From Natronococcus sp. CG52 (lineage in GTDB: Archaea > Halobacteriota > Halobacteria > Halobacteriales > Natrialbaceae): DNA of 64,000 nt. Position 1 is the first letter of the stretch. Every line of letters starts with the position of its first letter. Of this stretch, positions 24,296 through 41,943 are shown piece after piece. The stretch is from NCBI RefSeq assembly GCF_023913515.1, contig NZ_CP099391.1, positions 1,922,001-1,986,000 of the forward strand, written 5' to 3'. Both the position numbers and the translations under genes were made by a program. The notes beneath the pieces were generated by a model. That model was not told the DNA's origin and searched no databases. It saw nothing but the letters and a program-made list of their open reading frames with translations.

Positions 24296-24379
24296 TTACG
24301 TGTAGAGTTCGAGTCTCCGGAAGGCTTCGCCCACGAGTACCGCAACCGGGATGATCTCGAGGCGGCCGATCCACACAGG
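24296..24379 (-). pseudogene. C-terminal stub of a TrkH potassium transporter
   Basis: The last 27 codons before a stop read VWIGRLEIIPVAVLV and then FRRLELYT. This closely matches the C-terminal ends of the intact TrkH proteins here (MWIGRLEIIPVLVLLRGAM at 36457 and MWIGRIEIIPVLVLLLPAY at 28049). Upstream in the same frame nothing resembles TrkH, so the rest of the gene has been lost. It lies directly beside the regulator gene at 24570, which carries a TrkA-C domain. Confidence 0.8.
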
Positions 24380-24569
24380 CTGCAGACCACCACTATTGTA
24401 CGCTCTCGCCGCGCGAACCGTCTGCTCGTAGCGTGCGGTCCTGATCTGGCTTTCGTCATCGATCGATTTTCGTCTGCTTATCCGCCCTGAGTTTGGTCGA
24501 GCGAGGAAGTGACCACCGACCGGCGAACAAAAAACAGGATCCTTCACACCCGTAGTCGTACGTACGCGC

Positions 24570-25313
24570 ATGAGTATTCGCCTCGACGACGTGAACAAAC
24601 GCATCATCCACGCGTTAATGGGGGACGCTCGGAATACGTCCGCACCGATGATCGCCGAGGAAGTGGGCGTCTCTCCCGCAACGATTCGAAACCGGATCAA
24701 CCAGCTTGAGGACGCCGGGATCATCAGAGGATATCACGCGAACGTCGATTTCGATTCTGCCGACGACATGCTCACGACCCTGTACGTGGCGACGGCGCCG
24801 GTCGGAGAACGTGCACGACTCGCCCAGCAAGCGCGGACGATTACCGGCGTCGTCAACGTTCGAGAGTTCATGGCAGGAGGGGAAAACCTCCACGTTCTCG
24901 CCGTCGGAGGCGATGTCGAAGGGGTAAACGACGTCGCACGAGAGCTGACGGCGCTCGGTCTCGACATCGACGACGAAAAACTCGTCCGGACCGAGCAGTT
25001 TCAGTCGTACCACCCCTTCGGTCCCGCCGAAACCCGCCAGCAGTTCTCGGATTACATCAGTCTCGCCGGCGGCAACAAGGTCGTTCAACTCACTGTTGAG
25101 GACGACGCACCGATCGCCGACACAACCCTCGAGCGAGCTGGAACCGAGGGGCTGCTCGAGGAAGGATTGCTCGTCGTCTCGATCGAACGGGAGGATTCCG
25201 TACTGACGCCGACGGGCGACAGCGAAATACGAGCTGGTGACCTGCTCACGGTTCTCTCCAGGGATGGAATTACGGATCGCATGCTCGACGCGTTCGAAGC
25301 GAAAGACGACTAG
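24570..25313 (+). CDS. Lrp/AsnC-type regulator fused to a TrkA-C (RCK_C) domain
   Basis: The protein of 247 residues begins with an Lrp-like helix-turn-helix (residues about 5-55, with VNKRIIHALMGDARNTSAPM and VSPATIRNRINQLEDAGIIRGY). A central RAM-like region follows (about 60-140). It ends with an RCK_C domain (about 160-245; KVVQLTVEDDAPIADTTLER and LTPTGDSEIRAGDLLTVLSR). RCK_C domains bind small ligands, including c-di-AMP in several bacterial potassium systems. The fusion plus the potassium-transport neighbourhood suggests a transcription factor that senses potassium-linked signals; this is inference. Confidence 0.88.
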   Translation: MSIRLDDVNKRIIHALMGDARNTSAPMIAEEVGVSPATIRNRINQLEDAGIIRGYHANVDFDSADDMLTTLYVATAPVGERARLAQQARTITGVVNVREFMAGGENLHVLAVGGDVEGVNDVARELTALGLDIDDEKLVRTEQFQSYHPFGPAETRQQFSDYISLAGGNKVVQLTVEDDAPIADTTLERAGTEGLLEEGLLVVSIEREDSVLTPTGDSEIRAGDLLTVLSRDGITDRMLDAFEAKDD

Positions 25314-25457
25314 CGAGTCGATACTGGAACGTCAACACACTTATTCTGGAGGACTGAATCAACACGATGTATATGAACTCTGTTTCGGAATCAAAAACCG
25401 CTTCCAGAAGACCGGTCCGTTCATCCCGGCCCGGCAGCCGACGGGGTGAGACCGGGA

Positions 25458-27740
25458 ATGGCTGATCAGGAACTCGCCCGAGACCTCGGATTCCTCGAGG
25501 CGTACACCCTCGGGCTCGGAACGATGATCGGTGCGGGGATCTTCGTCCTGCCAGGGATCGTCGCCGAGAGCGCCGGTCCCGCGAGCATGATCTCGTTTAT
25601 AATTGGTGGCATCGTCGCCCTGCTCGCGGCCCTCTCGCTTTCGGAGCTGGCAACCGGGATGCCGAAAGCCGGCGGGAGCTACTACTACGTCAATCACGCG
25701 CTCGGGAGCTTCTTTGGAACGATCGTCGGCTGGGGGATGTGGGCCGGATTGATGTTCGCGACCGCGTTCTACATGCTCGGCTTCGGGCAGTATCTGCTCA
25801 ATCAGCCGTCAGACGCCCTCACTGTCATCCTCGCCGGACTGGTGATGGCTTCGCTCCTCGTGGGGATCAACTACCGCGGGGTCAAGGAAACGGGATCGTT
25901 ACAGAACATCATCGTGATCCTACTCGTCGGCCTCATCACCCTCTTTATCGCCGTCGGACTCACGAACATCGACACGAGCCTGCTCGACCCGTTCGTCCGA
26001 GAGGGTGAAGGATGGCCGGTTGTCGCGGCAACGGCGGGGACCGTGTTCGTCACGTTCATCGGCTTCGAAGTGATCGCGACCAGCGCCGAAGAGATCAAAG
26101 ACCCCGGTCGAAACCTCCCGCTCTCGATGATCGCCGCGGTCGTCACGCCGACGATCCTCTACGTTCTCGTGATGCTCGTCAGCACGGGCACGCTTCCGGT
26201 GCCGGAACTGGCCGCATCGGACGTGCCGGTTGCCGACGTCGCCGCCGAAGCGGCCGGGCAGTTCGGAGAGATCGCCATCGGCGAGTACACCCTCGAGCTC
26301 GCCACGATCGGCTCGCTCGTGATGATCACCGGCGCGATTCTGGCGACTATCTCCTCGGCGAACGCGTCGATTCTCTCGGCTGCGCGAGTCAACTTCGCCA
26401 TGGGCCGCGATCAGATCCTTACCAACTGGCTCAACGTGATTCACGATCGGTACCGGACGCCCTATCGAGCGATCCTCGCGACGGGTGCCGTTATCCTCGT
26501 ACTTATCGCCAGTCCGCTACCGATCGATACGCTCGCCGACGTCGCGAGCTTCATGTTCCTTATCACGTACGCGCTCGTTCACGCGGCGGTCATCGTCTTG
26601 CGGCGTGCGGATCCGGACGAGTACGATCCGGATTTCCGGATCCCGTCCGCGTTGTACCCGATCGTTCCGATCCTCGGCTTTCTGACCTGTCTCGGCGTCA
26701 TGGGCCAGATGCAGTGGCAGGTACAGGGGATCGGCCTCCTGATCGTCCTCGTCGGGATCGGCTGGTACGCGTTCTACTCGAAGGAGAAGGCAATTTCGAC
26801 GACGCTTATCGGTGAAGCCGTCGCTCCCACCGGCGAGACGCACGAGGACGAAGACGTCTATCGTGTCGTCGTCCCGGTCTCGAATCCCCAGACGGAACGT
26901 CCGCTGATCAAGTACGCCGCGGCGAGCGCGGCCGCCGAGGAGGAGCGCGCCGAACTCGTCGCCGTCAACGTTATTGAGGTCCCGCCGCAGATGTCTCCCG
27001 CCCAGATCGAGTTCGAAGAGGAGCGCGTCGAGAATCAGCGCGCACTCCTCGAGAACGCCCGCGATATCGCTACGGATCTGGACATCCCGGTCAGAACGCG
27101 CGCAATTGTCGGTCGAAACGCCGGCGACTCGATCCTATCGGTGCTCGAGGAAGAACGCGCAGATCACGTGCTACTGGGCTGGTCCGGGGAACGACGCCGT
27201 CGTGACGTCCTCTTTGGCACGACGATCGATCCGCTGCTCGAGCGGGCGCCGTGCGAGGTGACGCTGGTCAAGGATCCAACCGTCACTCCCGATCGGATCG
27301 TCACGCTCGCCGGCGAAGGTCCACACGCCATTGCGTCAGCGAAACGCGCCGGCGAGATACAACGTACGTTCTCCGGAACGACGCTGACCTTACTGAACGT
27401 CCAGCCTGAACCGGACGATGGTGAGTCCGAAATCGATCCGTCCGCCGTCGGCCACGAAACGATCACGGACGTCGCGACCGGAGCGGGACTCGAGGAGGAC
27501 GAGTACGACCCACGCGTGATCGTCAGCGACGACGTCCGAGAGACGCTCATCGACGCAGTGACGGAGTACGATACGATCTGCATCGGTGCAACGGGCACGA
27601 GTACGGTGGCACAGGCACTTTACGGTTCCATCCCACAGACGATCGTTCAAGAGAGTCGCGGTACAGTCGTGATGGCCCGCGGCGAGAACAGGGCTCCACG
27701 AACGTTCCGACAGGCGCTCGTCCAGCGATTGAGCGGATAG
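25458..27740 (+). CDS. APC-family permease with two C-terminal universal stress domains
   Basis: The protein of 760 residues has an APC/CAT-type membrane part (residues about 1-430, about 12 helices, first motif GLGTMIGAGIFVLPGI). Two Usp domains follow: one from about 440 (YRVVVPVSNPQTERPL to VTLVKD) and one from about 605 to 750 (ICIGATGTSTVAQALYGS). The ATG at 25458 (MADQELARDLGF) is preferred to a GTG four codons upstream. Such fusions are annotated as amino-acid permeases; the Usp part probably binds nucleotide and gates transport. The substrate is not known, and potassium should be considered given its neighbours. Confidence 0.88.
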   Translation: MADQELARDLGFLEAYTLGLGTMIGAGIFVLPGIVAESAGPASMISFIIGGIVALLAALSLSELATGMPKAGGSYYYVNHALGSFFGTIVGWGMWAGLMFATAFYMLGFGQYLLNQPSDALTVILAGLVMASLLVGINYRGVKETGSLQNIIVILLVGLITLFIAVGLTNIDTSLLDPFVREGEGWPVVAATAGTVFVTFIGFEVIATSAEEIKDPGRNLPLSMIAAVVTPTILYVLVMLVSTGTLPVPELAASDVPVADVAAEAAGQFGEIAIGEYTLELATIGSLVMITGAILATISSANASILSAARVNFAMGRDQILTNWLNVIHDRYRTPYRAILATGAVILVLIASPLPIDTLADVASFMFLITYALVHAAVIVLRRADPDEYDPDFRIPSALYPIVPILGFLTCLGVMGQMQWQVQGIGLLIVLVGIGWYAFYSKEKAISTTLIGEAVAPTGETHEDEDVYRVVVPVSNPQTERPLIKYAAASAAAEEERAELVAVNVIEVPPQMSPAQIEFEEERVENQRALLENARDIATDLDIPVRTRAIVGRNAGDSILSVLEEERADHVLLGWSGERRRRDVLFGTTIDPLLERAPCEVTLVKDPTVTPDRIVTLAGEGPHAIASAKRAGEIQRTFSGTTLTLLNVQPEPDDGESEIDPSAVGHETITDVATGAGLEEDEYDPRVIVSDDVRETLIDAVTEYDTICIGATGTSTVAQALYGSIPQTIVQESRGTVVMARGENRAPRTFRQALVQRLSG

Positions 27741-28048: not shown

Positions 28049-29566
28049 TCAGGACTTCCAGTACGCTGGCAGCAACAGCACGAGCACGGGGATGATCTCG
28101 ATCCGTCCGATCCACATCATGATCACCATGACCGCACGAGTGGTGACGGGGAACCCGGCGTAGTTGTCCATCGGGCCGGCCATGCCGAACGCGGGGCCGA
28201 TATTGAGGAAGATCGACGCGGCGGCCCCCAGCGCCTCGAACTCGGTGACGCCCGTCCCGGCTCGAGCGGCATCGACGACGATGAGAATCGTCAGGAAAAA
28301 GAAGATGACGATCGCGAGCATCACGTAGGAGAAGATGTCGTTGATCGTCTCCTCGTCGACGACGCCGTCACCCAGCCGGACCGGCTGAACTGCCGTCGGG
28401 TGAATCGACGTGAAGAAGTTGCGGTACAGTCCCTTTAGGATCACGAGCCAGCGGAGCGTCTTGATGGAACAGGTCGTACTGCCGGCCATCCCGCCGAGGA
28501 ACATACACAGAAAGAGAACGTGTTTGGCGCCCGGCGTCCAGAGGTCGAAGTTGGTCGAGGCGTACCCCGTCGTCGTTACCAGCGAGACGACGTTGAAAAA
28601 GCCGTGTCTGATCGTCTCCTCGAGCCCCCTGTTGATCTCGGGATCGAGTCCGATGATGAACGAGACGATCACGCTGAAGAACGCGATGACGCCGAGATAG
28701 AAGCGGAACTCTTCGGATTCGAACGGCCGGCTGAAGTCGCCCTGGGTGATGTAGTACAGCAACACGAAATTAGTCGCTCCGAGGATCATGAAGGGTATGA
28801 CAGCCCACTGAACGATGGGCTCGAACGCGCCGATGCTCTGGGGCTCGGGGGAAAACCCGGCGGTCGAGACGCTCGTGAGCGCGTGGGCGGCGGCGTTGAA
28901 GAGATCCATGTTGGGGGCGAGACCGACGAGGTGAAGCAAGTAGAACGTCGCTGCCGCGAGCAGGGTGAGACCGACGTACAGTCCCCAGATGAGTCGGGCG
29001 GTGCTCTCGATCTGCGGGGTCAGCTTGGTCACGTTCCTGGTCTGCGTTTCTGTCTCCATCAGCTGTGCACCACCGACCATCAGATTCGACAGCAACCCGA
29101 TCGCGACGATCAGGATGCCGAGTCCGCCGAGCCACTGCAGTAGCTGCCGCCAGAGCAGGATCGCTCGTGACTGGTTCTCGAAGTCCCACTCGTTCATCAC
29201 CGTCGCACCCGTCGTCGTGAGTCCGCTCATGCCCTCGAACAGCGCGTTGATGAGGCTGTAAAACGCGGAGCTGGGACCGGCAGCGAGGCCAGCCAGGTAG
29301 AACGGGATCGCACCGATGACGGCGACGCTGAGCCAGGTCAGCGCGACCATCAGGAACCCCTCGCGCTGGCCGAGTTCGCGGTCGTCGCTCAGCAACTCGA
29401 GTGCGCCCCCCAGTACGGCCGTGATGACGACCGCGACGGCGAACGGGATGATAGCGTCGCCGTCGAACACGGCCAGGACGAGCGGGACGGCGAGCGGCAC
29501 CGCGAGCCACTTCAGAACCGTTCCCGTCAGGCTACAGCTCGAGCGCCAGTCGACGCGGATCCTCAT
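28049..29566 (-). CDS. trkH: TrkH-type potassium transporter, paralogue 1
   Basis: The 505-residue membrane protein has the four-fold TrkH/KtrB repeat. The selectivity-filter loops are readable: GLTTTGATVM, SVSTAGFSPEP, VTTTGYASTNF and GGMAGSTTCSIK. The last loop departs from the usual GSTxGGxK (Cys-Ser in place of Gly-Gly). It imports potassium with sodium or protons and needs a TrkA partner. No trkA gene is directly adjacent; the nearest is at 32854. The start resembles paralogue 2 (MRIRVDWR versus MRWRVDWR). Confidence 0.93.
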   Translation of the reverse strand: MRIRVDWRSSCSLTGTVLKWLAVPLAVPLVLAVFDGDAIIPFAVAVVITAVLGGALELLSDDRELGQREGFLMVALTWLSVAVIGAIPFYLAGLAAGPSSAFYSLINALFEGMSGLTTTGATVMNEWDFENQSRAILLWRQLLQWLGGLGILIVAIGLLSNLMVGGAQLMETETQTRNVTKLTPQIESTARLIWGLYVGLTLLAAATFYLLHLVGLAPNMDLFNAAAHALTSVSTAGFSPEPQSIGAFEPIVQWAVIPFMILGATNFVLLYYITQGDFSRPFESEEFRFYLGVIAFFSVIVSFIIGLDPEINRGLEETIRHGFFNVVSLVTTTGYASTNFDLWTPGAKHVLFLCMFLGGMAGSTTCSIKTLRWLVILKGLYRNFFTSIHPTAVQPVRLGDGVVDEETINDIFSYVMLAIVIFFFLTILIVVDAARAGTGVTEFEALGAAASIFLNIGPAFGMAGPMDNYAGFPVTTRAVMVIMMWIGRIEIIPVLVLLLPAYWKS

Positions 29567-29739: not shown

Positions 29740-32055
29740 CTACTCGGCGTTCTGTAACCCGATCAGCCGTTCTCGGAGCGACCGGCTGGTCGGTCGTTCC
29801 GCCAGAAGGACGGAACACTCGACGTCGTTAATGACGTCGTAGGCGAGCGAGCCGCGGACGAGCCGCGAGAGGAGACCCCGTTCGGTCGCGCCGATGATGA
29901 CCAGCGAGTGGTCCCGCGCGGCGGTTGCGATCGCGCCCTCGACGTCGCCGGACGTGTCGATCCGGATCGCCGCGTCCTCGAGGCCGTGATCCGCGGCCCA
30001 CTCGGTCAGGAACCTCTCGCCTTCGGCCTCCTCCGTCGGGTCGTCGACCGCGTGCAGGAGCGTGACCTCGGAACCGAGCTGGTCGCGGAGGTACGTGGCG
30101 ATCTCGGCGCTCAGATCGGAGTCGGGACCGCCGGCCGTCGGGACCAGCACGCGATCGGTCTCCAGCCCCCGGTCCTTGAGAACGAGGAAGTCACAGGGGA
30201 GGTCGTGGGTCAGCTCCTCGAGCGGACGCTCCGCGCGGCCGGCGGACCACGGTCTGTCCGCCCCCCAGCCCATGACGACCTTGTCGGCTTCCTCGCGGCG
30301 GGCCACGTCGAACACTTCCTCGAACGAGCGGTGGGAGACGATCGTTCTGACGTCGACGGGGACGTCCATCGTCTCCGTGCTCTCGCGGACGTTTTCCATC
30401 AGCTGCTGGGACTCCTCGTCGATTCGTCGGACGTGTTCCGATCCCTCCGAGAGCGGCGTCTGATCGGGGACTTCGACGATGTGGACGGCCTGAACGCGGC
30501 CGTCGTTGGCCTTCGCGAACACGCTCGCCAGCGAGAGGAGAGTGGATTCGGTCCGGGGGTTCGATACCGGCACCAGTACCGTGTACTCGCTGCCGCCGGA
30601 CGGACGCGCGACCGTCGCCGCCGAAACTGCGGCGTCGGGCATCTCCTCGGACCGCGAGAGGATGTAGTGGCTCAGTACGCCTTCCCGCTCGGTCTCGTGG
30701 CGAGCGTAGACGCCGTACCAGATAATTGCACCCGCGACGAACAGCATGCCCAGCGCGATCTCGATCCGCTCCATGAACCCGATCAACCCGAGCGAGAGGA
30801 CGACCCCGAGCATGGGCGTGATCGGATACAACGGGACGGTGAAGTCGGGGTCGTATTCGGGGACGTCCGCCTCCCGGAAGACGATCAGCGCCGCGTTGAT
30901 CAGCGCGTAGACAACGAGGTGAAGGACGCTAGCTGCCTTTGCCAGTACTTCGATGTCGCCCCCGAGAACGGCGATGAAGACGATGATCATCAGCCCGGTG
31001 ACGGCGATCGACCGGTACGGCGTGGCGAACCGCGGGTGGATCTCGTTCAGCCAGTCGGTGACGATCTTGTCCCGACCCATCGCGAAGTTGATCCGCGCGG
31101 AGGCGAGGATCGACGCGTTGGCGCTCGAGGCGGTCGCCAGAAGTGCCGCGAGCGTGATCGACGTCACACCGATTACGCCGAGGTTCCCCTCGAAGATGAC
31201 GTTCGCGACGTCGGACATGGGCGTGCTCTCGCTGATCGAGTCGTACGGGATGATCCCGACCATCAGGCCGACGAGGATCGAGTAGATGACCATTACGATG
31301 GCGACGCTGCCGATGATGGCTATCGGAAGGTTCCGGCCCGGATTCTTGAGTTCCTCGCCGATGGTCGCGATCTTCGCATATCCCAGGTACGAGACGAACA
31401 CGAGCGCGGCACCGGGGAGGATCGCCCCGGTCCCCTCAGGCGTGAGTCCGTCGGTCGTGACCGTTCCCCAGTCGAACGAGAAGAATCCGACGATGGCGAA
31501 GACCGTAAGAATTCCCAGGAGGATCGTGACGATGACCGTCTGGACGCCGCCGGTCTCTTTCGCACCGATGTAGTTGACGCCGACGAATACGATGCCCGCC
31601 AGCAACGCGCCAATCTGGATATCGGAGAGAATGAACGGGCCGAGAACGATCGTCGGGAGCAGTTCTATCGAGCCGAGCAGCGGGATCGTAACGACGACAC
31701 CGCCGAGTAGCGTCGCGAGGTAGCCGCCGAAGCCGATGCAGTAGAAGGCGCTTGCGAACGCGAGTCCCATCCAGTCCCCCATGCCAGAGATCGAACCGAA
31801 GAGAGGACCGAGTCCCCGATTGATGTAGTAGTACGCGCCACCTGCTTTCGGCATCGCAGTCCCGAGTTCGCTCACCGAGAGCGCGTTGACCATCGCGATA
31901 CTTCCGCCGATGATGAACGACACTACGACTGCGGGCCCCGCTTCGGCCGCGGCGACGCCGGGGAGAACGAAGATCCCGGCGCCGATCATCGTCCCAATCC
32001 CGACTGCGAGCGCCGAAACCAGGCCCAGGTCCTTGGCGAGTTCCTCGTCACTCAT
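29740..32055 (-). CDS. APC-family permease with two C-terminal universal stress domains, paralogue 2
   Basis: The 771-residue protein is a paralogue of the one at 25458. About 12 membrane helices come first (GIGTMIGAGIFVLPGVAAAE), then two Usp domains starting near residues 487 and 640. The second has a full nucleotide-binding pattern (IIGATERGLLSRLVRGS) and the first a modified one. It would transport an amino acid or other cation/solute under nucleotide control. The permease part ends in several charged residues (YARHETEREG) before the Usp part. Confidence 0.88.
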   Translation of the reverse strand: MSDEELAKDLGLVSALAVGIGTMIGAGIFVLPGVAAAEAGPAVVVSFIIGGSIAMVNALSVSELGTAMPKAGGAYYYINRGLGPLFGSISGMGDWMGLAFASAFYCIGFGGYLATLLGGVVVTIPLLGSIELLPTIVLGPFILSDIQIGALLAGIVFVGVNYIGAKETGGVQTVIVTILLGILTVFAIVGFFSFDWGTVTTDGLTPEGTGAILPGAALVFVSYLGYAKIATIGEELKNPGRNLPIAIIGSVAIVMVIYSILVGLMVGIIPYDSISESTPMSDVANVIFEGNLGVIGVTSITLAALLATASSANASILASARINFAMGRDKIVTDWLNEIHPRFATPYRSIAVTGLMIIVFIAVLGGDIEVLAKAASVLHLVVYALINAALIVFREADVPEYDPDFTVPLYPITPMLGVVLSLGLIGFMERIEIALGMLFVAGAIIWYGVYARHETEREGVLSHYILSRSEEMPDAAVSAATVARPSGGSEYTVLVPVSNPRTESTLLSLASVFAKANDGRVQAVHIVEVPDQTPLSEGSEHVRRIDEESQQLMENVRESTETMDVPVDVRTIVSHRSFEEVFDVARREEADKVVMGWGADRPWSAGRAERPLEELTHDLPCDFLVLKDRGLETDRVLVPTAGGPDSDLSAEIATYLRDQLGSEVTLLHAVDDPTEEAEGERFLTEWAADHGLEDAAIRIDTSGDVEGAIATAARDHSLVIIGATERGLLSRLVRGSLAYDVINDVECSVLLAERPTSRSLRERLIGLQNAE

Positions 32056-32342: not shown

Positions 32343-32771
32343 TTACTCGTCTCGATGCGGGAGGGACACGACCGGAACAACGGGATCGGTGACGAGTTTC
32401 GACGTCGTATCGCCGGCGAGGAGTTGCACGATCCGGCTGCCGCCGCGTGCGCGGATCGCGACCGCGTCCGCTTTCGCGTCGGTTGCCGCGTCGAACAGCG
32501 CGTCGGCGACGTCCGTCCCGTAGACGGTTCGGGTGTCGACCGAGACCCGATCGCCGAGTTCCGAGTCCACGACCGCGATGAACTCGGCGGCGTCTTCCTG
32601 GCGTTTCCCCAGTGGCGCCTTGTCCATCGCGCCGGCGGCTTTTTCGATCACGTGGACTGCGGTGACCCGCTCTACGTCCTCGAGATACGGCTCGAGTGCG
32701 GCACACGTCGCTCGAGCGTCCTCCTCGGTCGCGACCGGAACGAGGAGGTGGGTGAGTAACGATTTGCTCAT
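32343..32771 (-). CDS. Universal stress protein, degenerate nucleotide loop
   Basis: This 142-residue single Usp domain begins MSKSLLTHLLVPVATEEDAR. Its C-terminal loop reads IRARGGSRIVQLLAGDTTSK, which keeps some glycines but lacks the usual GS/GT pair, so ATP binding may be weak. The ATG at 32771 is preferred to one 24 bases upstream. It lies 82 bases downstream of trkA on the same strand and could be co-transcribed with it. Confidence 0.88.
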   Translation of the reverse strand: MSKSLLTHLLVPVATEEDARATCAALEPYLEDVERVTAVHVIEKAAGAMDKAPLGKRQEDAAEFIAVVDSELGDRVSVDTRTVYGTDVADALFDAATDAKADAVAIRARGGSRIVQLLAGDTTSKLVTDPVVPVVSLPHRDE

Positions 32772-32853
32772 ACCGTACGTTTCTGACCGACGCACTTAAG
32801 ATTCGATACCGGACCGTGGGCCGGCGGGGAGGCTGGACTGCGAAGGAGCGTTC

Positions 32854-34188
32854 TCAGAGAGCGGCCGTGACTTCGTCTAAGAGTTGCGTCTCGGTAAACA
32901 ACACGACGTGATCGCCCGGCTGGATCACGGTTTTTCCGCGCGGGATTACGAGTTCTCCCGCTCGAGAAATCGCTCCGATCACGACGCAATCCGGAAAATC
33001 GTCTATGGCGTCGACGATTTCGCGTCCGGCCAGCGCGCTATCGCGGCTGATTTCGATCTCCAGGACCTCCGCTCGGTCGTGTTCGAGCATTGCGATCTTC
33101 TCCATCTGGTCGGCGCGGGTAAACCGGATGATTTCCTCCGCCGTCTCTTCCCGGGGGCTGATCGCTACGCTGACACCGACGGTTTCGAATAGCTCAGCGT
33201 ATTCGACGGTTTCGATCACCGCGACGGTCCGTTCGACGCCGATTTCGCGGGCCAGCATCGAGACCAGGAGGTTTCGCTCGTCGCTATCGAGTGCCGCGAT
33301 CACCATGTCCGCTTCGTCGACGTGCTCGCGTTGGAGAAAGTCCGTATCGGTAGCGTCACTCTCCCAGACGGACGTGTTCGGGAGGTCTTCGGCGAGTTCA
33401 CGCGCTCGGTCGTGGTCCCGCTCGATCAGGTTCGGGTGGTAGCCGTGCTCTTCGAATACGCGTGCGGTCTGGAATCCAATTTCGCTGCCCCCAATAATGA
33501 CGACGTCGTCGATCTTGTTATTTTCGTGAATTACGATATCGTTCGCAAACTGCTCGACCGAGCTGGAGCTTCCGATGACGACCACGCGGTCGGTTAGTTT
33601 GATAACGGTATCCCCACGCGGGATGATCAGTTCGTCGTCCCGGAAGAGCGCGGCGAACGTCAGTGAGTCGTATCGGTCGGCTTCCTGGACGGTCTGGTTC
33701 GCGACCGGACTCTCCGGACCGATTTCGAACTCAGCCATCCGAACGAGACCGCCAGTGAACGTATTGACGTCGTGGGCGCCGGGGAACCCGGAAATACGGA
33801 AGATCGCCTCCGCCGTCAGGAGGTCCGAACTCACCATGAAATCGACGCCGTAGGCCCCGCTAGATCCTTGCCAGGTCGTGAGGAGCTTCTGCTGTTTGAC
33901 TCGGGCGATAGTGAACACGTCACCGGTGGTCTTCGCGGTTCCACACGTGACGATGTTCGTCTCGTCGATGTCGGTGGACGCGATCAGCAACTCCGCCTTC
34001 TCGATTCCGGCCTCCCGAAGGGAGTCGAGATCGGTGCCGTCACCCTGAATCACCATCGCGTCCAGCGAATAGGTGAGGTCCTCTACAATCTCCTCGTCTT
34101 GCTCGATGACGACCACGTCGTGGGTCTCGACGAGATCCCTGGCGATCGATCGCCCGACCTCGCCCGCTCCGACGATGATTACGCGCAT
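32854..34188 (-). CDS. trkA: TrkA potassium-uptake regulator with two RCK units
   Basis: The 444-residue cytosolic protein has two RCK_N + RCK_C units. The first Rossmann motif is VGAGEVGRSIARDL (residues 5-18) and the second is IIGGSEIGFQTARVFEE near residue 233. The RCK_C parts end with VIKLTDRVVVIGS and TVIQPGDHVVLFTE. It binds NAD(H)/ATP and gates TrkH. The divergent neighbour at 34364 is a TrkH, the natural partner. The region 34189-34363 between them presumably holds both promoters. Confidence 0.95.
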   Translation of the reverse strand: MRVIIVGAGEVGRSIARDLVETHDVVVIEQDEEIVEDLTYSLDAMVIQGDGTDLDSLREAGIEKAELLIASTDIDETNIVTCGTAKTTGDVFTIARVKQQKLLTTWQGSSGAYGVDFMVSSDLLTAEAIFRISGFPGAHDVNTFTGGLVRMAEFEIGPESPVANQTVQEADRYDSLTFAALFRDDELIIPRGDTVIKLTDRVVVIGSSSSVEQFANDIVIHENNKIDDVVIIGGSEIGFQTARVFEEHGYHPNLIERDHDRARELAEDLPNTSVWESDATDTDFLQREHVDEADMVIAALDSDERNLLVSMLAREIGVERTVAVIETVEYAELFETVGVSVAISPREETAEEIIRFTRADQMEKIAMLEHDRAEVLEIEISRDSALAGREIVDAIDDFPDCVVIGAISRAGELVIPRGKTVIQPGDHVVLFTETQLLDEVTAAL

Positions 34189-34363
34189 CCGAATCCCTCT
34201 CGTTCCATTCTGACGAGAGTTGCGGACGAACCGCGAAATGTGTTACGGAGACCTCCGGCACCTCCGTCCAAATCTGGTTTCTTCATCGTTGCATCCTTTT
34301 CGGTGATTTCTTATCAGGTGGCCGTTTGCGCATTTCTATGGACAGTACGTGGTGTCTCGATCC

Positions 34364-35899
34364 ATGAGATGGCGGGTTGACTGGCGGGCAGGTGTCAGCC
34401 TCGTCGGGACCGTCATTAAATATCTCGCCCTGACGATGTTCGTTCCACTAACTGTCGCCGTCATCTACTGGGAAGACGTCTGGGTTTTCGTCGCGTCTAT
34501 CCTGATCGCGGTTGCTATCGGTCTGTCTCTCGAGCGTCTCGACCCGGACCCGGACCTCGGACCGGAGGAGGCGTTGCTCCTGGTTTCGCTGTCGTGGTTC
34601 GCCGCCGCGCTCATCGGGATGATTCCGTTCATGCTCGCCGGGTACGGGACTGGGTCGACGCTTGCACACCCGGTCAATGCCCTCTTCGAGTCGATGAGCG
34701 GCTTTACCACGACCGGGGCGACTGTCATGGGCGAGATCAGTTTCGAGCGCCACTCGCACGCGCTGTTGATGTGGCGCCAGCTCACGCAGTGGCTCGGCGG
34801 GATGGGGATTATTGTCCTGATGATAGCCATCCTTCCCGAACTCGCAGTCAACGGTGCGCAGTTGATGCAGACGGAGGCCCCCGGTCCCGAGCTACAGAAG
34901 CTCACGCCAAAAATCGCGGAAACGGCGCGAGCGCTCTGGCTCGTCTACTTCGGGTTCACGGTGGTGTATATCTGTCTGCTGTACGGCCTTCACCTGGCCG
35001 GGTTTGCGCCGAATATGGACTTCTACAACGCCGTCGCACACGGCTTTACGACCTTACCGACCGGCGGCTTCTCTCCACAGGCCGACAGTATCGCCGCGTT
35101 CTCGGCTGCGGTTCAGTGGGTCGTCATCCCGTTCATGGTGATCGCCGGCGTGAACTTCGCCCTGTTCTGGCACGCGTTCCGGGGCGAGTTCCGCGAACTC
35201 ACCCACGACACGGAGTTCCGGGCCTACACCGGTGCGATAGCGGTTTTGATCGCGATACTGTCGGTGCTGCTGGCCCGTGGCGCAGCGCCCGTCCTCGAGA
35301 TCGGTGGCGCGACCGAGGGGCTGACCGAAAACACGATCCGCCAAGCTGCGTTCCAGATCGGCGCGTTGCTGAATTCGACCGGATACGCGACGAGTGACTT
35401 CGCGCAGTGGAGCACGAACGCACAGATGGTCCTCCTGTTCGCGATGTTTATCGGCGGGTCAGCCGGATCGACCGGTGGCGGAATCAAGGTCATCCGATGG
35501 CTGGTGGTTCTCAAGGCGATTCGACGGGAACTCTTCGTGTCTGCACATCCGGAGGCAGTCCGACCGGTACGTCTCGCTGGCCACGTCATCGACGAGGATG
35601 CCATTCGCGGGATCTTCGCGTTCACCCTCCTCTACCTGCTGCTGTTCGCGGGATCCGCCGTGTTTATCGCCGTCGACTCGGCGCGGATCGGGTACGACTT
35701 GAGCGCGCTCGAGGCGATCAGTGCATCGCTGGCGACCATCGGGAACATCGGACCTGGCTTCGGGTCACTCGGCCCGTTCGGAAGCTATCTCGAGTTCTCC
35801 AATACGTCCAAACTGCTCATGACATTCCTGATGTGGGTTGGCCGGCTCGAGATCGTCCCGGTCCTCGCCCTGTTCATCAGCGGCCTGGACCGGTCCTGA
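34364..35899 (+). CDS. trkH: TrkH-type potassium transporter, paralogue 2
   Basis: The 511-residue protein shows all four TrkH filter loops (GFTTTGATVM, TLPTGGFSPQA, LLNSTGYATSDF and GGSAGSTGGGIK) and the conserved end WVGRLEIVPVLALF. The ATG at 34364 (MRWRVDWRAGVSL) is chosen over a GTG 15 bases upstream because it aligns with paralogue 1. It is divergent from the two-unit TrkA and is likely to form a complex with it. Confidence 0.94.
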   Translation: MRWRVDWRAGVSLVGTVIKYLALTMFVPLTVAVIYWEDVWVFVASILIAVAIGLSLERLDPDPDLGPEEALLLVSLSWFAAALIGMIPFMLAGYGTGSTLAHPVNALFESMSGFTTTGATVMGEISFERHSHALLMWRQLTQWLGGMGIIVLMIAILPELAVNGAQLMQTEAPGPELQKLTPKIAETARALWLVYFGFTVVYICLLYGLHLAGFAPNMDFYNAVAHGFTTLPTGGFSPQADSIAAFSAAVQWVVIPFMVIAGVNFALFWHAFRGEFRELTHDTEFRAYTGAIAVLIAILSVLLARGAAPVLEIGGATEGLTENTIRQAAFQIGALLNSTGYATSDFAQWSTNAQMVLLFAMFIGGSAGSTGGGIKVIRWLVVLKAIRRELFVSAHPEAVRPVRLAGHVIDEDAIRGIFAFTLLYLLLFAGSAVFIAVDSARIGYDLSALEAISASLATIGNIGPGFGSLGPFGSYLEFSNTSKLLMTFLMWVGRLEIVPVLALFISGLDRS

Positions 35900-36456: not shown

Positions 36457-38004
36457 TCAATCGTACAATCCGGCGCGCACCATGGCCCCGCGAAGGAGAA
36501 CCAGCACGGGAATGATCTCGAGCCGCCCGATCCACATGTTGAGGAGGAACACGACCTTCGCGGCGACAGGCATATCCGGGCCGGTGATCCCGGCGGAGAG
36601 GCCGACCGTGCTCTGTGCGCTCATGACCTCGAAGAGCGCGTACTCGGTCGGAATCTCCGTCGGAAGCGTCGCGAGGAGGACGGTCAGTCCCACCGCGAGG
36701 AAGATCAGCCAGAGGAGCAACACGATCGCCGCCTCCTCGAGTTCTCTGCTCGCCTGATCTTCGTCGAGCGATCGATCCCCGATTCGGAGCCGTCGCACTG
36801 CGGAACTCGGGGTGAACACGCCGGCGATACGCCACCGGGAACCTTTCACGAGCGTGATCGCGCGGATGAGTTTGATTCCACCGACCGTCGACCCGGCGGC
36901 GGCACCGGTGAGCATTCCTGCACAGACGATCAGCGTCGCGTCGGCGGTCCAGACCTGTTCCGTCCCGTTTCCGATCGCCGTCGTGCCGAACCCAGCGTTC
37001 GACGTCCCGGAGACGAACTGGAAGAGTCCGTATCGAAACGCGTCCTCGAAGCTATCGTACGTGCCACGGAGGTAGAGAGTCCCCGTCAGGACGATCGAGC
37101 CGATACTGAACCAGATGAAGACCCACCGGGTCTGAACGTCCGCATAGAGGTTCCTGATCTCGCCTTTGAATAGCAGGTAGTGGACGGGGAAGGCGATGCT
37201 GCCCGCGACCATCACCGGGATGACCGCGTACTCGATGAGCGGACTGCCGTAGTGACCGATCGAGTCGGCGTGAATCGAGAATCCGCCGGTCGAAATACCG
37301 GTCATCGCGTGATTGATTGCCCCCCACAGCGGCATCCCGGCCGCGAGGAACAACCCGATAGCCCCGATCGTGAGGACGAGGTAAATCTTCCAGATTTCGT
37401 GCACTGTCGAGACGATACTGGGATGGATCTTCGTCGATCGGGCCTCGCTCTCGTACAGCGTGAGCGACCCACTCCCCGGTCGTGCGAGGACGGCGACCGT
37501 CAGCACGATGACCCCGACGCCGCCGATCCACTCAGTGAACGACCGCCACCACTGCATCGTTGCGGTGAGTTCCTCTTCCGTGTTCGCCATCGTCAGCCCC
37601 GTCGAGGTGAATCCGCTGAGACTCTCGAAAACGCCGTTCAGCGGATCCTGGAACTCGGCGGTCGTCTCGTTGAGCGGTGGCGTGTTCGCCCACGTCGGGA
37701 ACGGGTCGATAGCGATCGTCCACGCGACGAGAAGCAAGGGGAGCGCGCCGAGGACGCCGACGGCCGCCCACGCGGCCGCTGCGGTAAGCATCCCGTGGAG
37801 TTTGTCCGAGTCCGGCGCGTCGGCGAACCAGCGAGAGAGGCTCCCGCCGACTGCGAGCATCACGAAGCCCGACCCCACGAGCGCCGGGATCGCGTAGTAC
37901 TCACGATGTAGTATCGCCACGGGAATCGAGACGAACGCCATGAGGGAGACGATCTGGACGATCCCTCCGACGTCCCGTCCCACCGTTCGAAACTGGACCC
38001 TCAT
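36457..38004 (-). CDS. trkH: TrkH-type potassium transporter, paralogue 3
   Basis: The 515-residue protein is a divergent TrkH. Its filter loops read GFTSTGLTMA, GISTGGFSIHA, GTSNAGFGTTA and GAAAGSTVGGIK, and it ends MWIGRLEIIPVLVLLRGAM. The first loop replaces the usual TTG by STG and the third by NAG, which may alter ion selectivity. Its start overlaps the stop of the TrkA gene at 38001 by four bases, so the two form a translationally coupled operon. Confidence 0.93.
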   Translation of the reverse strand: MRVQFRTVGRDVGGIVQIVSLMAFVSIPVAILHREYYAIPALVGSGFVMLAVGGSLSRWFADAPDSDKLHGMLTAAAAWAAVGVLGALPLLLVAWTIAIDPFPTWANTPPLNETTAEFQDPLNGVFESLSGFTSTGLTMANTEEELTATMQWWRSFTEWIGGVGVIVLTVAVLARPGSGSLTLYESEARSTKIHPSIVSTVHEIWKIYLVLTIGAIGLFLAAGMPLWGAINHAMTGISTGGFSIHADSIGHYGSPLIEYAVIPVMVAGSIAFPVHYLLFKGEIRNLYADVQTRWVFIWFSIGSIVLTGTLYLRGTYDSFEDAFRYGLFQFVSGTSNAGFGTTAIGNGTEQVWTADATLIVCAGMLTGAAAGSTVGGIKLIRAITLVKGSRWRIAGVFTPSSAVRRLRIGDRSLDEDQASRELEEAAIVLLLWLIFLAVGLTVLLATLPTEIPTEYALFEVMSAQSTVGLSAGITGPDMPVAAKVVFLLNMWIGRLEIIPVLVLLRGAMVRAGLYD

Positions 38005-38672
38005 TCGTGATTCCCGGTAAACGCCATCACGGCATCGTCCAGCGTAGCATCGTCGGTAAACACCGTTACCTGGTCGCCCGCGTGAACCGTCGTCTCTCCT
38101 CTCGGCGCTCGAATCTCCCCGTCGCGCTCGAGTGCGACGACGAGACAGCCGTCTGGAAGCGCTCCCGACTCTTTTGCCGTCGCGAGCAGTTGTCCGTTCA
38201 TCCGCGCGTCCTCGGTGACGGTCAGTTCCACCAGTTCGGTCTGATCGTCGAGATCGATGAAGTCACTGACGTTCGGATACCGGACGGAGTGATAGAGATA
38301 GTCCGCGATCAGTCGCTGCGGATTCTCGATCATGTTGACGCCGATCTTCTCGAAGACGGGGAGGTTTTCGGGCTCGTGGACGACGCTGACCAGGTTCGGG
38401 ACGTCGTGTTCCTGGGCGAGTAACATCACCATGATGTTGACCGCGTCGACGTCAGTGGTCGAAATGACGGCGTCCGCACGGTCGATCTCCGCGTCTCTGA
38501 GCGTCCCGTGGTTCGTCGCGTCGTCGTTGAGGACGAGACAGTCATGCTCCGTCGAGACCTCGTTCGCTCGTTCCTCGTCAGTCTCGATGACGACGACGTC
38601 GTTGCCGCCGTTCACTGCGAGGTCGATCAGATTCGAACCGATGCTTCCCGCGCCGATGATTACGAGGTACAT
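38001..38672 (-). CDS. TrkA-type regulator with one RCK unit (KtrA-like)
   Basis: The 223-residue protein has a single RCK_N (VIIGAGSIGSNLIDLAVNGG at residues 4-23) and RCK_C (VELTVTEDARMNGQLLATAK and ETTVHAGDQVTVFTDD). KtrA-like single units assemble as octameric rings that gate a TrkH/KtrB channel. The partner is the downstream trkH paralogue 3, which overlaps it by four bases. Confidence 0.94.
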   Translation of the reverse strand: MYLVIIGAGSIGSNLIDLAVNGGNDVVVIETDEERANEVSTEHDCLVLNDDATNHGTLRDAEIDRADAVISTTDVDAVNIMVMLLAQEHDVPNLVSVVHEPENLPVFEKIGVNMIENPQRLIADYLYHSVRYPNVSDFIDLDDQTELVELTVTEDARMNGQLLATAKESGALPDGCLVVALERDGEIRAPRGETTVHAGDQVTVFTDDATLDDAVMAFTGNHE

Positions 38673-39834: not shown

Positions 39835-40286
39835 TCAGTGAACGTAGGCGATGAACTGGTTGACCGTTTCGTCACTGCCCGCGACGATGAGCGTATCGTC
39901 TTCCCGAACGGTGAACTCCGGACCCATGTCCGTCGAGAGCTGTTCCCCACGCTCGACCGCAACGACGGTACACCCCGTTCGCGAACGGACGTCGGCCTCG
40001 CCGAGCGTTCGGCCGACGATGGCCGGTGCAGCCGTCCGGACGATTTCGAACTGCGTCTCCGGCGTCAGTACCTCTTCGTCCTCGAGTAACACCGAGGGGA
40101 GCATCCGGCGAAGCCGGCCGTCGTCAGCGACTCGATGACGGTCTGGACCGACTGCACGAGCGTCAGTTGCACCCCCTCGTACGTCGCCATCGCCCACTGG
40201 TAGACGAACGCGTAGACGAGAATGATGCCGAGGACTGCCACGAGCGAGAAAACGACCCGTCGCCACCACGTATTCGTTCGGCACAC
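39835..40286 (-). pseudogene. Internally deleted potassium channel/TrkA protein
   Basis: The 5' part (from GTG 40286) encodes WWRRVVFSLVAVLGIILVYA and a pore helix ending VIESLTTAGFAG, exactly where the K+ filter should begin. The frame then shifts near 40104-40115 and the remainder is the last part of a two-RCK channel protein: LLEDEEVLTPETQFEIVRTA, IVGRTLGEADVRSRTGCTVV and EDDTLIVAGSDET, to a stop at 39835. The filter, second helix and both Rossmann domains are missing, several hundred residues compared with the haloarchaeal family as I know it. The product cannot be a working channel. Confidence 0.8.
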
Positions 40287-40445
40287 GAACGGTGAGGGTA
40301 CGGAAATCGGACGGTCCGTTAGTGACCGCGCTGTCGTCTCGAAACTCGCCCGTGATCCACCGGCTGTCACCGCGACCCCCAGCTTGAATCGACGATCGAA
40401 GCATGCAGATAAAACGACTTTGTCGGACGAGGCCCTACGTCGACC

Positions 40446-40853
40446 ATGGATGTCCTCGTCGCCGTAGACGACTCGGAAGAAGCCCGGCAGGCGCTCGAAC
40501 ACGCGCTCGAGACGTTTCCCGACGCCGCGATACGAGTCGTCACCGTCCTCGAGGTAGAGCTCTCGGATATGCCGGGCAGCTCCGACGCATCGGCGGAAGA
40601 CGCGGCCCGCGAAGACGCCGAGGAAATCCTCTCCGACGCGGTGGCGATCGCCGAGGAGTACGGCCAGACCGTCGAGACGGACGTCGTTACCGGCCACCCT
40701 GCGAAGGCGACGGTCTCGTTCGCCGACGAACGAGACGTCGATCACATCGTCATCGGGAGTCGCGGGAAGGGCGGCGTGAAACGGGTCCTGCTCGGGAGCG
40801 TCGCCGAGACGGTCGTCCGCCGGGCGGACTGTCCCGTGACGGTCGTCCGGTGA
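40446..40853 (+). CDS. Universal stress protein (UspA family)
   Basis: The 135-residue single Usp domain starts MDVLVAVDDSEEARQALEHA and has a complete ATP-binding loop (IVIGSRGKGGVKRVLLGS) and the final strand CPVTVVR. It is divergent from the channel pseudogene and convergent with the FNT gene, four bases apart at the stops. An A-rich TATA-like element (CAGATAAAAC) lies about 35 bases before the ATG. Confidence 0.92.
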   Translation: MDVLVAVDDSEEARQALEHALETFPDAAIRVVTVLEVELSDMPGSSDASAEDAAREDAEEILSDAVAIAEEYGQTVETDVVTGHPAKATVSFADERDVDHIVIGSRGKGGVKRVLLGSVAETVVRRADCPVTVVR

Positions 40854-40857
40854 TTCG

Positions 40858-41943
40858 TCACTCGTTTTCGCTGTAATCGACGGCGTCACTCGTACGATCG
40901 GCCTCGCCTTCCTCCCTGCGCTCGGTCCCGTCCACGGTGTCCGCCTCGAGTCGTGACCCCATTCGCTCCGCAATTCCGAGCTGGTCTTCCGGCAATTCGG
41001 ACTCCTTGCCGGGTCTGGCAGGAACGTAGGCGCGCCCGGCGAGCCCGCCGATAAACCACTCCCGCACCGTCAGCTGTCGTTCGGCTCCGTCCTGGCGAGC
41101 GGCCTCGAGACGGCGTTCGGTCGTCTGGAAGTAGTTGACGACCGTCACGAGCAGGACGCCGCCGATGGTGTTGCCGAGCAGGACCGGCAGGACGAACTGG
41201 CTCATCCCCGCGTAGAGCGCGATTCGTCCGTTGAACACGAGGTACATCACCTCGGTGATGGAGACGACGACGTGGAACAGATCCGCAAACGGGATCATGA
41301 GAAACGCCATGTAGACGAGGAAGAACCGGGTGATAGTGTCGCGGGACGCGAAGTCGAGCCAGACGACGCCGGCGACGATCAGTCCGGCGAACGCGGCCTT
41401 GAAGAACAGGTCCCAGAAGGGCGTCTCCATTCCTTTCATGGCGATCTCGGTGGCCGCGATGGACGCGTCGTGGGAGAAGACGCCGGTGAACGCGAGCACG
41501 AGCGCGCCGAACGTTCCGCCGACGAAGTTTCCGATCAGGACCACCGTCCAGACGCGAAAGAGTGCCGGGAGACTCGCCAGCCGCTCGAGGACGAGCGCGA
41601 CCGGCGGCAGGGTGTTCTCCGTGTAGAGCTGATAGCCGCCCAGGATGATGTAGATGAAGCCGATCGGATAGAGGAACCCGCTCAGAACCGGATCTCCGTC
41701 GTATTTGGCGTACATCGAGGCGTATATCAGGAACGTCAGCGTGATCGCGAATCCGGCGGCGAGAGCACTGAAGAACAGCTCGCGGAGCCCGGTGTCGATC
41801 TCGTCGTCCGCCGCGGCGATAATCCGCTGGAAGACCTCGTTGCTCTCGAAGCGATCCCGGACGACCGCACCGACCGCCGGTGCGCCGTGGCGCGACTGTT
41901 CGACGCTCTTTCGAAGCGAGTCGTCGGGATCGTCTTCGCTCAT
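40858..41943 (-). CDS. Formate/nitrite transporter (FNT) family protein
   Basis: The 361-residue protein has a charged N-terminus (about 65 residues), the six-helix FNT channel (residues about 70-300), and a charged C-terminal tail of about 60 residues. Family-like signatures include LIGNFVGGTFGALVLAFTG and LPVLLGNTIGGVLLVTVVNY. FNT channels pass formate, nitrite, acetate or hydrosulfide. The substrate cannot be told from sequence by eye. ATG 41943 is preferred to a start seven codons upstream. Confidence 0.88.
   Translation of the reverse strand: MSEDDPDDSLRKSVEQSRHGAPAVGAVVRDRFESNEVFQRIIAAADDEIDTGLRELFFSALAAGFAITLTFLIYASMYAKYDGDPVLSGFLYPIGFIYIILGGYQLYTENTLPPVALVLERLASLPALFRVWTVVLIGNFVGGTFGALVLAFTGVFSHDASIAATEIAMKGMETPFWDLFFKAAFAGLIVAGVVWLDFASRDTITRFFLVYMAFLMIPFADLFHVVVSITEVMYLVFNGRIALYAGMSQFVLPVLLGNTIGGVLLVTVVNYFQTTERRLEAARQDGAERQLTVREWFIGGLAGRAYVPARPGKESELPEDQLGIAERMGSRLEADTVDGTERREEGEADRTSDAVDYSENE

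Follow-up and report, generated by a model that had tools for sequence, protein, structure and literature searches.

Haloarchaea offset molar external salt with K+, and the transcriptional control of their K+ uptake genes is, to our knowledge, poorly known. The stretch of Natronococcus sp. CG52 DNA analysed here (64,000 nucleotides, contig NZ_CP099391.1, positions 1,922,001 to 1,986,000 of the forward strand; hereafter, the window) contains a gene for an apparent transcription factor that ends in a domain typical of K+ channel gating subunits. This raises the question of whether the encoded protein switches genes in response to the same ligand that gates the Trk proteins, as had been proposed in a preliminary description of the sequence.

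Domain architecture of the regulator

The gene encodes a protein of 247 amino acids, starting at an ATG codon, in which the following features were identified.

24570..25313 (+): Lrp/AsnC-type regulator with a C-terminal RCK_C (TrkA_C) domain (open reading frame, Pfam, alignment, AF2)
24582..24728 (+): winged helix-turn-helix of the AsnC type, residues 5-53 (Pfam)
24750..24983 (+): divergent RAM-fold domain, residues 61-138 (profile search, AF2, foldseek)
25008..25070 (+): probably flexible linker, residues 147-167, modelled with low confidence (pLDDT below 50 at residues 155-167)
25071..25295 (+): RCK_C (TrkA_C) domain, residues 168-242 (Pfam, foldseek)

Residues 5-53 match the HTH_24 and HTH_AsnC-type families in Pfam (E 1e-9 and 3e-9), with scores of 36.9 bits for PF13404 (cut-off 27) and 38.2 bits for PF13412 (cut-off 21.9), which identifies an N-terminal winged helix of the AsnC type. 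The HTH residues D6, V34, T38, R40, and R42 are invariant among 146 aligned homologues. At the opposite end, residues 171-236 match TrkA_C (PF02080) with 32.2 bits against a gathering cut-off of 27, and the RCK_C domain of a Thermotoga TrkA (3jxo) superposes on this part of the model with an rmsd of 1.2 A over 63 columns (foldseek against PDB). R207 and D224 are invariant, and P214 and G216 nearly invariant, in the same 146 homologues. The open reading frame and the Pfam matches thus confirm that an Lrp-like DNA-binding domain is joined to an RCK_C domain, as originally described, but an intervening domain had been missed.

Although no RAM match was obtained in the Pfam search of the regulator, the AF2 model (mean pLDDT 83.7 and pTM 0.52 for the whole protein) has a beta-alpha-beta-beta-alpha-beta fold at residues 68-138, with pLDDT values mostly above 90, and a compact RCK_C fold at residues 170-242. 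Lrp/AsnC crystal structures match residues 3-141 in a search with a profile of 71 homologues. Foldseek comparison of the model with the PDB retrieved AldR, LrpA, a halophilic Lrp (8q90), and, over the winged helix and RCK_C, BusR. The model, the profile search, and the foldseek matches to Lrp/AsnC proteins agree on the alpha/beta sandwich of the RAM fold found in FFRPs. Because this fold lies between the HTH and RCK_C, the domain order is HTH-RAM-RCK_C. Homologues that carry both terminal domains and match over the full length are spread across the Halobacteriales; the fusion is therefore neither a chance open reading frame nor an assembly artefact.

Distribution of the family

In the Natrialbaceae, 119 of the 121 genomes encode a match at E 1e-20, a count that includes HTH-RAM-only paralogues. 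At E 1e-45, a level reached, among the matches listed, by near-full-length ones only, matches are present in 114 of the 195 genomes of Halobacteriales. Outside this order, one full-length relative (36% identity) was detected among 148 genomes sampled from the phylum. The gene for this relative (L195:7896-8627, genome G303) is transcribed divergently from Usp and APC genes, and its host may be another salt-in halophile. Members of the family are encoded on chromosomes and on plasmids, many of them on the latter. The combination of Lrp and TrkA_C has been described as restricted to haloarchaea in two reports (PMC4236453, PMC8229911), and the distribution found here agrees with this restriction, widened by one lineage.

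Genomic neighbourhood and the upstream deletion

The regulator is the first gene of a K+/solute island that spans about 14 kb. As initially described, it is located between a TrkH stub and an APC-Usp permease, the latter being its probable co-directional target.

24299..24376 (-): TrkH C-terminal stub, 26 codons (81% identity to the TrkH C-terminus of Natronococcus pandeyae)
24377..24499 (no strand): deletion scar, 123 bases (break in blastn colinearity)
25446..27740 (+): APC permease fused to two Usp domains (Pfam AA_permease_2 4.6e-54, Usp 3.5e-27)
28049..29566 (-): TrkH (Pfam TrkH 1.1e-65)
29740..32055 (-): second APC-Usp permease (Pfam)
32343..32795 (-): Usp (Pfam Usp 2e-8)
32854..34188 (-): TrkA with two RCK units (NCBIfam TrkA, 702.7 bits)
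34349..35899 (+): TrkH (TrkH family match G000:C1:1956553-1957878)
36457..38004 (-): TrkH, paralogous to the copy deleted upstream of the regulator (Pfam TrkH 1.7e-72)
38001..38672 (-): short TrkA (TrkA_N and TrkA_C; Pfam), of the class in which RCK_C resembles that of the regulator

The origin of the stub became apparent from comparison with N. pandeyae, which carries a 93% homologue of the regulator. In blastn alignments, the DNA of the window is 88% identical to that of N. pandeyae up to position 24376, which falls within the 3' end of trkH; the similarity resumes at position 24500. Where the window has 123 bases, N. pandeyae carries 2765, encompassing the remainder of trkH together with a short trkA and usp. 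The stub is what is left after a deletion of about 2.6 kb in which usp, trkA, and the greater part of trkH were lost, all of which are intact in N. pandeyae. An unrelated open reading frame or a functional mini-protein was also considered and discarded, given that colinearity with the N. pandeyae DNA extends as far as the stub and is restored 123 bases later. Ancestrally, usp-trkA-trkH was thus divergent from the regulator, which was followed by APC-Usp. A paralogous trkH-trkA pair, retained at 36457-38672, shares 75% DNA identity with the lost segment.

In another genome of the same genus (locus L076, genome G064), the divergent usp-trkA-trkH unit is likewise missing next to a 91% homologue of the regulator. 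The breakpoint there is not the one found in the window, so this unit may have been lost more than once. Positions 39835-40973 (-) contain remnants resembling a K+ channel or transporter and ending in TrkA_C, in the form of two overlapping open reading frames in different frames: 40065-40973 (-), with a membrane-type segment, and 39835-40404 (-), with TrkA_C (PF02080, 50 bits). This arrangement suggests a broken gene that lost its middle part.

Linkage to K+ and solute transporter genes

The 146 full-length members of the family were selected by protein score, blind to their neighbours. Of these, 127 have a gene for TrkH, TrkA, APC, or Usp at a distance of up to 5 kb, the counts being 79 for TrkH or TrkA, 72 for Usp, and 89 for APC, the commonest neighbour class. 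In 79 of the 146, the adjacent upstream gene belongs to one of these classes and is located on the opposite strand. HTH-RAM-only Lrp paralogues served as the control, with gene positions taken from whole-genome searches of 12 genomes. In these genomes, TrkH is encoded within 10 kb of 11 of the 23 Lrp-RCK_C genes compared with none of the 57 control genes (Fisher p 1.3e-7), and TrkH or APC within 5 kb of 16 of 23 compared with 3 of 57 (p 6e-9), p-values that overstate independence because the members are related by descent. The same layout is present in independently annotated records of Natronorubrum daqingense, Haloarcula hispanica, and Natronomonas pharaonis. That the family usually resides beside K+/solute transporter genes argues that the regulator probably controls these adjacent genes.

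The exceptions amount to 19 of the 146 homologues; two of these that were scanned adjoin a Na+/Ca2+ exchanger or a Na+/H+ antiporter gene. A clade of Lrp-RCK_C proteins about 58-64% identical to the product of the window gene is encoded next to type I phosphodiesterase and glycosyltransferase genes, not K+ transporters (19-kb loci L094, L096, L099, L100, L102, and L104, with the regulator at about 9 kb, or about 3.7 kb in L094). The targets of this clade have possibly switched to surface polysaccharide genes.

The regulator could, alternatively, be a passenger in mobile salt-adaptation islands, with global or unrelated targets. The abundance of plasmid-borne members, the visible rearrangement of the island, and the location of some members elsewhere are compatible with such hitch-hiking. 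However, the linkage recurs throughout the tree, on deep branches with differing gene orders, and is missing for the sister Lrp paralogues. Local regulators, moreover, typically have the divergent, head-to-head arrangement. We consider this explanation improbable.

The closest HTH-RAM-only paralogues are also found near APC genes (G060:C1:3444967, G120:C1:105651, and G038:C12:110574), so the association with APC may predate the gain of RCK_C or have outlasted its loss.

The prominence of APC genes brings up another alternative, an amino-acid feast/famine regulator in which RAM would bind an amino acid, the adjacent APC-Usp would be the target, and RCK_C would serve for dimerisation only. The confidently modelled RAM-like fold, the position of APC as the commonest neighbour class, and the proximity of close HTH-RAM-only paralogues to APC genes, seen in a few genomes, all fit this scheme. 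Yet, the RAM domain has diverged beyond recognition by Pfam, and that of Trh2 has been judged probably non-functional (PMC4236453); RCK_C is well conserved, with invariant residues of its own, and is specifically similar to that of the K+-gating subunit (see below); and the linkage to TrkH/TrkA is as marked as that to APC. We therefore consider feast/famine regulation unlikely, and prefer a local regulator of both K+ and solute transport.

Relationships of RCK_C and the predicted ligand

With a profile of the RCK_C domains of the regulators, the median scores are 112 bits for the regulators themselves, 80 for short TrkA (up to 107), and 34 for two-unit TrkA. The median identity of the regulator RCK_C is 40.5% to short TrkA compared with 27.8% to two-unit TrkA; among themselves, the short TrkA domains have a median identity of 43%. 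By these measures, the regulator RCK_C is nearest to that of the short one-unit TrkA from the same islands. Being almost as near to short TrkA as the short TrkAs are to each other, it plausibly shares their ligand.

The RCK_C domain of the regulator might, instead of binding a ligand of its own, dock onto that of TrkA through hetero-dimerisation or ring exchange and sense the abundance or state of TrkA by contact. RCK_C domains do dimerise (PMC8517857), and those of the regulator and short TrkA are sister-like and often encoded side by side. Several homologues, however, have no trkA nearby, and regulator and TrkA RCK_C domains from the same locus are no closer than those from different loci (median identity 39.2 compared with 40.5%), a result that gives no indication of pairwise co-adaptation. 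Docking is accordingly improbable, in our assessment.

Cyclic di-AMP is our favoured, if still tentative, candidate for this ligand, ahead of nucleotides of the NAD(H)/ATP type or ions. The genome contains a gene for a DAC-domain protein; Haloferax volcanii makes c-di-AMP, with effects on osmotic/low-salt behaviour, and the archaeal (Haloferax) targets of this nucleotide were reported as unknown in 2019 (PMC6741144). In a sequence search with RCK_C against solved c-di-AMP-bound RCK_C proteins, the significant matches to RCK_C proteins were of the TrkA type only. BusR was matched in the profile search over the HTH part only, at E 0.72, whereas the fold search matched both ends. In an informal reading, as opposed to a formal alignment, Asn157 and His160, which make the polar contacts of BusR with c-di-AMP, have no evident invariant counterpart in helix 187-192 of the regulator; the hydrophobic character of the BusR pocket could, by a similarly informal comparison, be met in the regulator RCK_C.

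A conserved element upstream of the regulator

Comparison of 20 close relatives identified a conserved element upstream of the start codon.

24523..24546 (+): conserved element, -47 to -24 from the ATG

The element is kept at -46 to -48 in these relatives. Scored across the window, its own copy reaches 34 bits, the next best site 13.6, and the shuffle maximum is 12.8. A shared operator was rejected on these scores because the promoters of the adjacent transporters carry no second copy of the element; thus, it is probably a BRE/TATA-like core promoter giving rise to a leaderless transcript. No operator-like motif common to the regulator and transporter promoters was found within the window. The element is evidence neither for nor against autoregulation.

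Predicted function

Taken together, these observations are best explained by a local, haloarchaeal, Trh2-like regulator of K+/solute transport that senses the predicted signal of the Trk gating ring, a reading to which we assign a probability of roughly 0.6. The original proposal that genes are switched by the same ligand that gates the Trk proteins is partly, and indirectly, supported by the gene linkage and the kinship of RCK_C. The Lrp-type winged helices would bind promoters within the island, namely, that of the regulator itself and that of the co-directional APC-Usp; most relatives would also bind the divergent unit, usp-trkA-trkH or APC-Usp. The RCK_C domain, either acquired from the short TrkA gating subunit or common to both proteins, would bind the cytoplasmic signal that gates the Trk channels, and the ligand would alter the RCK_C dimer and hence DNA binding, by analogy with the effect of c-di-AMP on BusR. 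One signal could then tune the transporters twice, at the protein level through TrkA and at the transcript level through the regulator.

A more specific scenario, which we regard as possible but somewhat doubtful, is that of a widespread archaeal family of transcription factors responsive to c-di-AMP (or another RCK ligand) that evolved independently of BusR, by fusion of a TrkA-type RCK_C to Lrp, and sets the transcription of ligand-gated Trk and APC-Usp transporters. If true, the regulator would be a candidate for the first archaeal transcription factor for c-di-AMP, and a single small-molecule signal would govern the expression of these transporters as well as their gating, a solution that bacteria reached separately with BusR. 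The linkage and the TrkA-like sensor are circumstantial evidence that such proteins serve K+/solute transport and have a sensor in common with short TrkA, and they make the family a concrete, testable candidate for K+, and possibly c-di-AMP, control in archaea.

Comparison with known systems

The closest described counterparts are other haloarchaeal Lrp proteins. Trh2 (VNG1285G) of Halobacterium salinarum NRC-1 was presented in 2014 as an Lrp-type regulator with a C-terminal TrkA_C, for which sensing of K+/NAD+ by the TrkA-C domain was already proposed; its targets do not overlap significantly with those of other Lrp paralogues, it was predicted to act as a conditional activator, and no K+ genes are named among its targets in the accessible text (PMC4236453). 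According to a 2021 survey, Lrps with HTH and TrkA_C occur in five haloarchaeal families, with no function assigned, and include WP_004056739.1 and WP_004058688.1 of Haloferax mediterranei (PMC8229911). The regulator has the same architecture, with an Lrp HTH and TrkA_C in one chain, and a haloarchaeal distribution.

With the HTH-RAM Lrp/AsnC proteins (FFRPs), the regulator shares the fold of both domains, over residues 3-141, but differs in the additional RCK_C, the divergent RAM, and the linkage to TrkH, which is missing in the two-domain paralogues. Short TrkA possesses the nearest relative of its RCK_C, by profile score and identity; however, TrkA contains a Rossmann-type nucleotide-binding RCK_N domain and gates TrkH, whereas the regulator has HTH-RAM in place of RCK_N. 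BusR, a GntR-family protein of Streptococcus and Lactococcus with a winged helix and a C-terminal RCK_C, controls an osmolyte transporter and has been proven to bind c-di-AMP (PMC8517857). It resembles the regulator in these two domains and in the fold match over both ends, but its winged helix is of the GntR type and it has a coiled-coil tetramerisation ruler and no RAM, in contrast to the AsnC-type HTH and the RAM middle domain of the regulator. The resemblance is probably convergent; BusR is a functional parallel and not a member of the family.

Thus, the architecture and the idea of K+/NAD+ sensing were known before. The linkage to trk, APC, and usp genes, measured against a control, and the kinship between the RCK_C of the regulator and that of short TrkA do not appear in the accessible text of PMC4236453 and PMC8229911, and are the new findings of this analysis.
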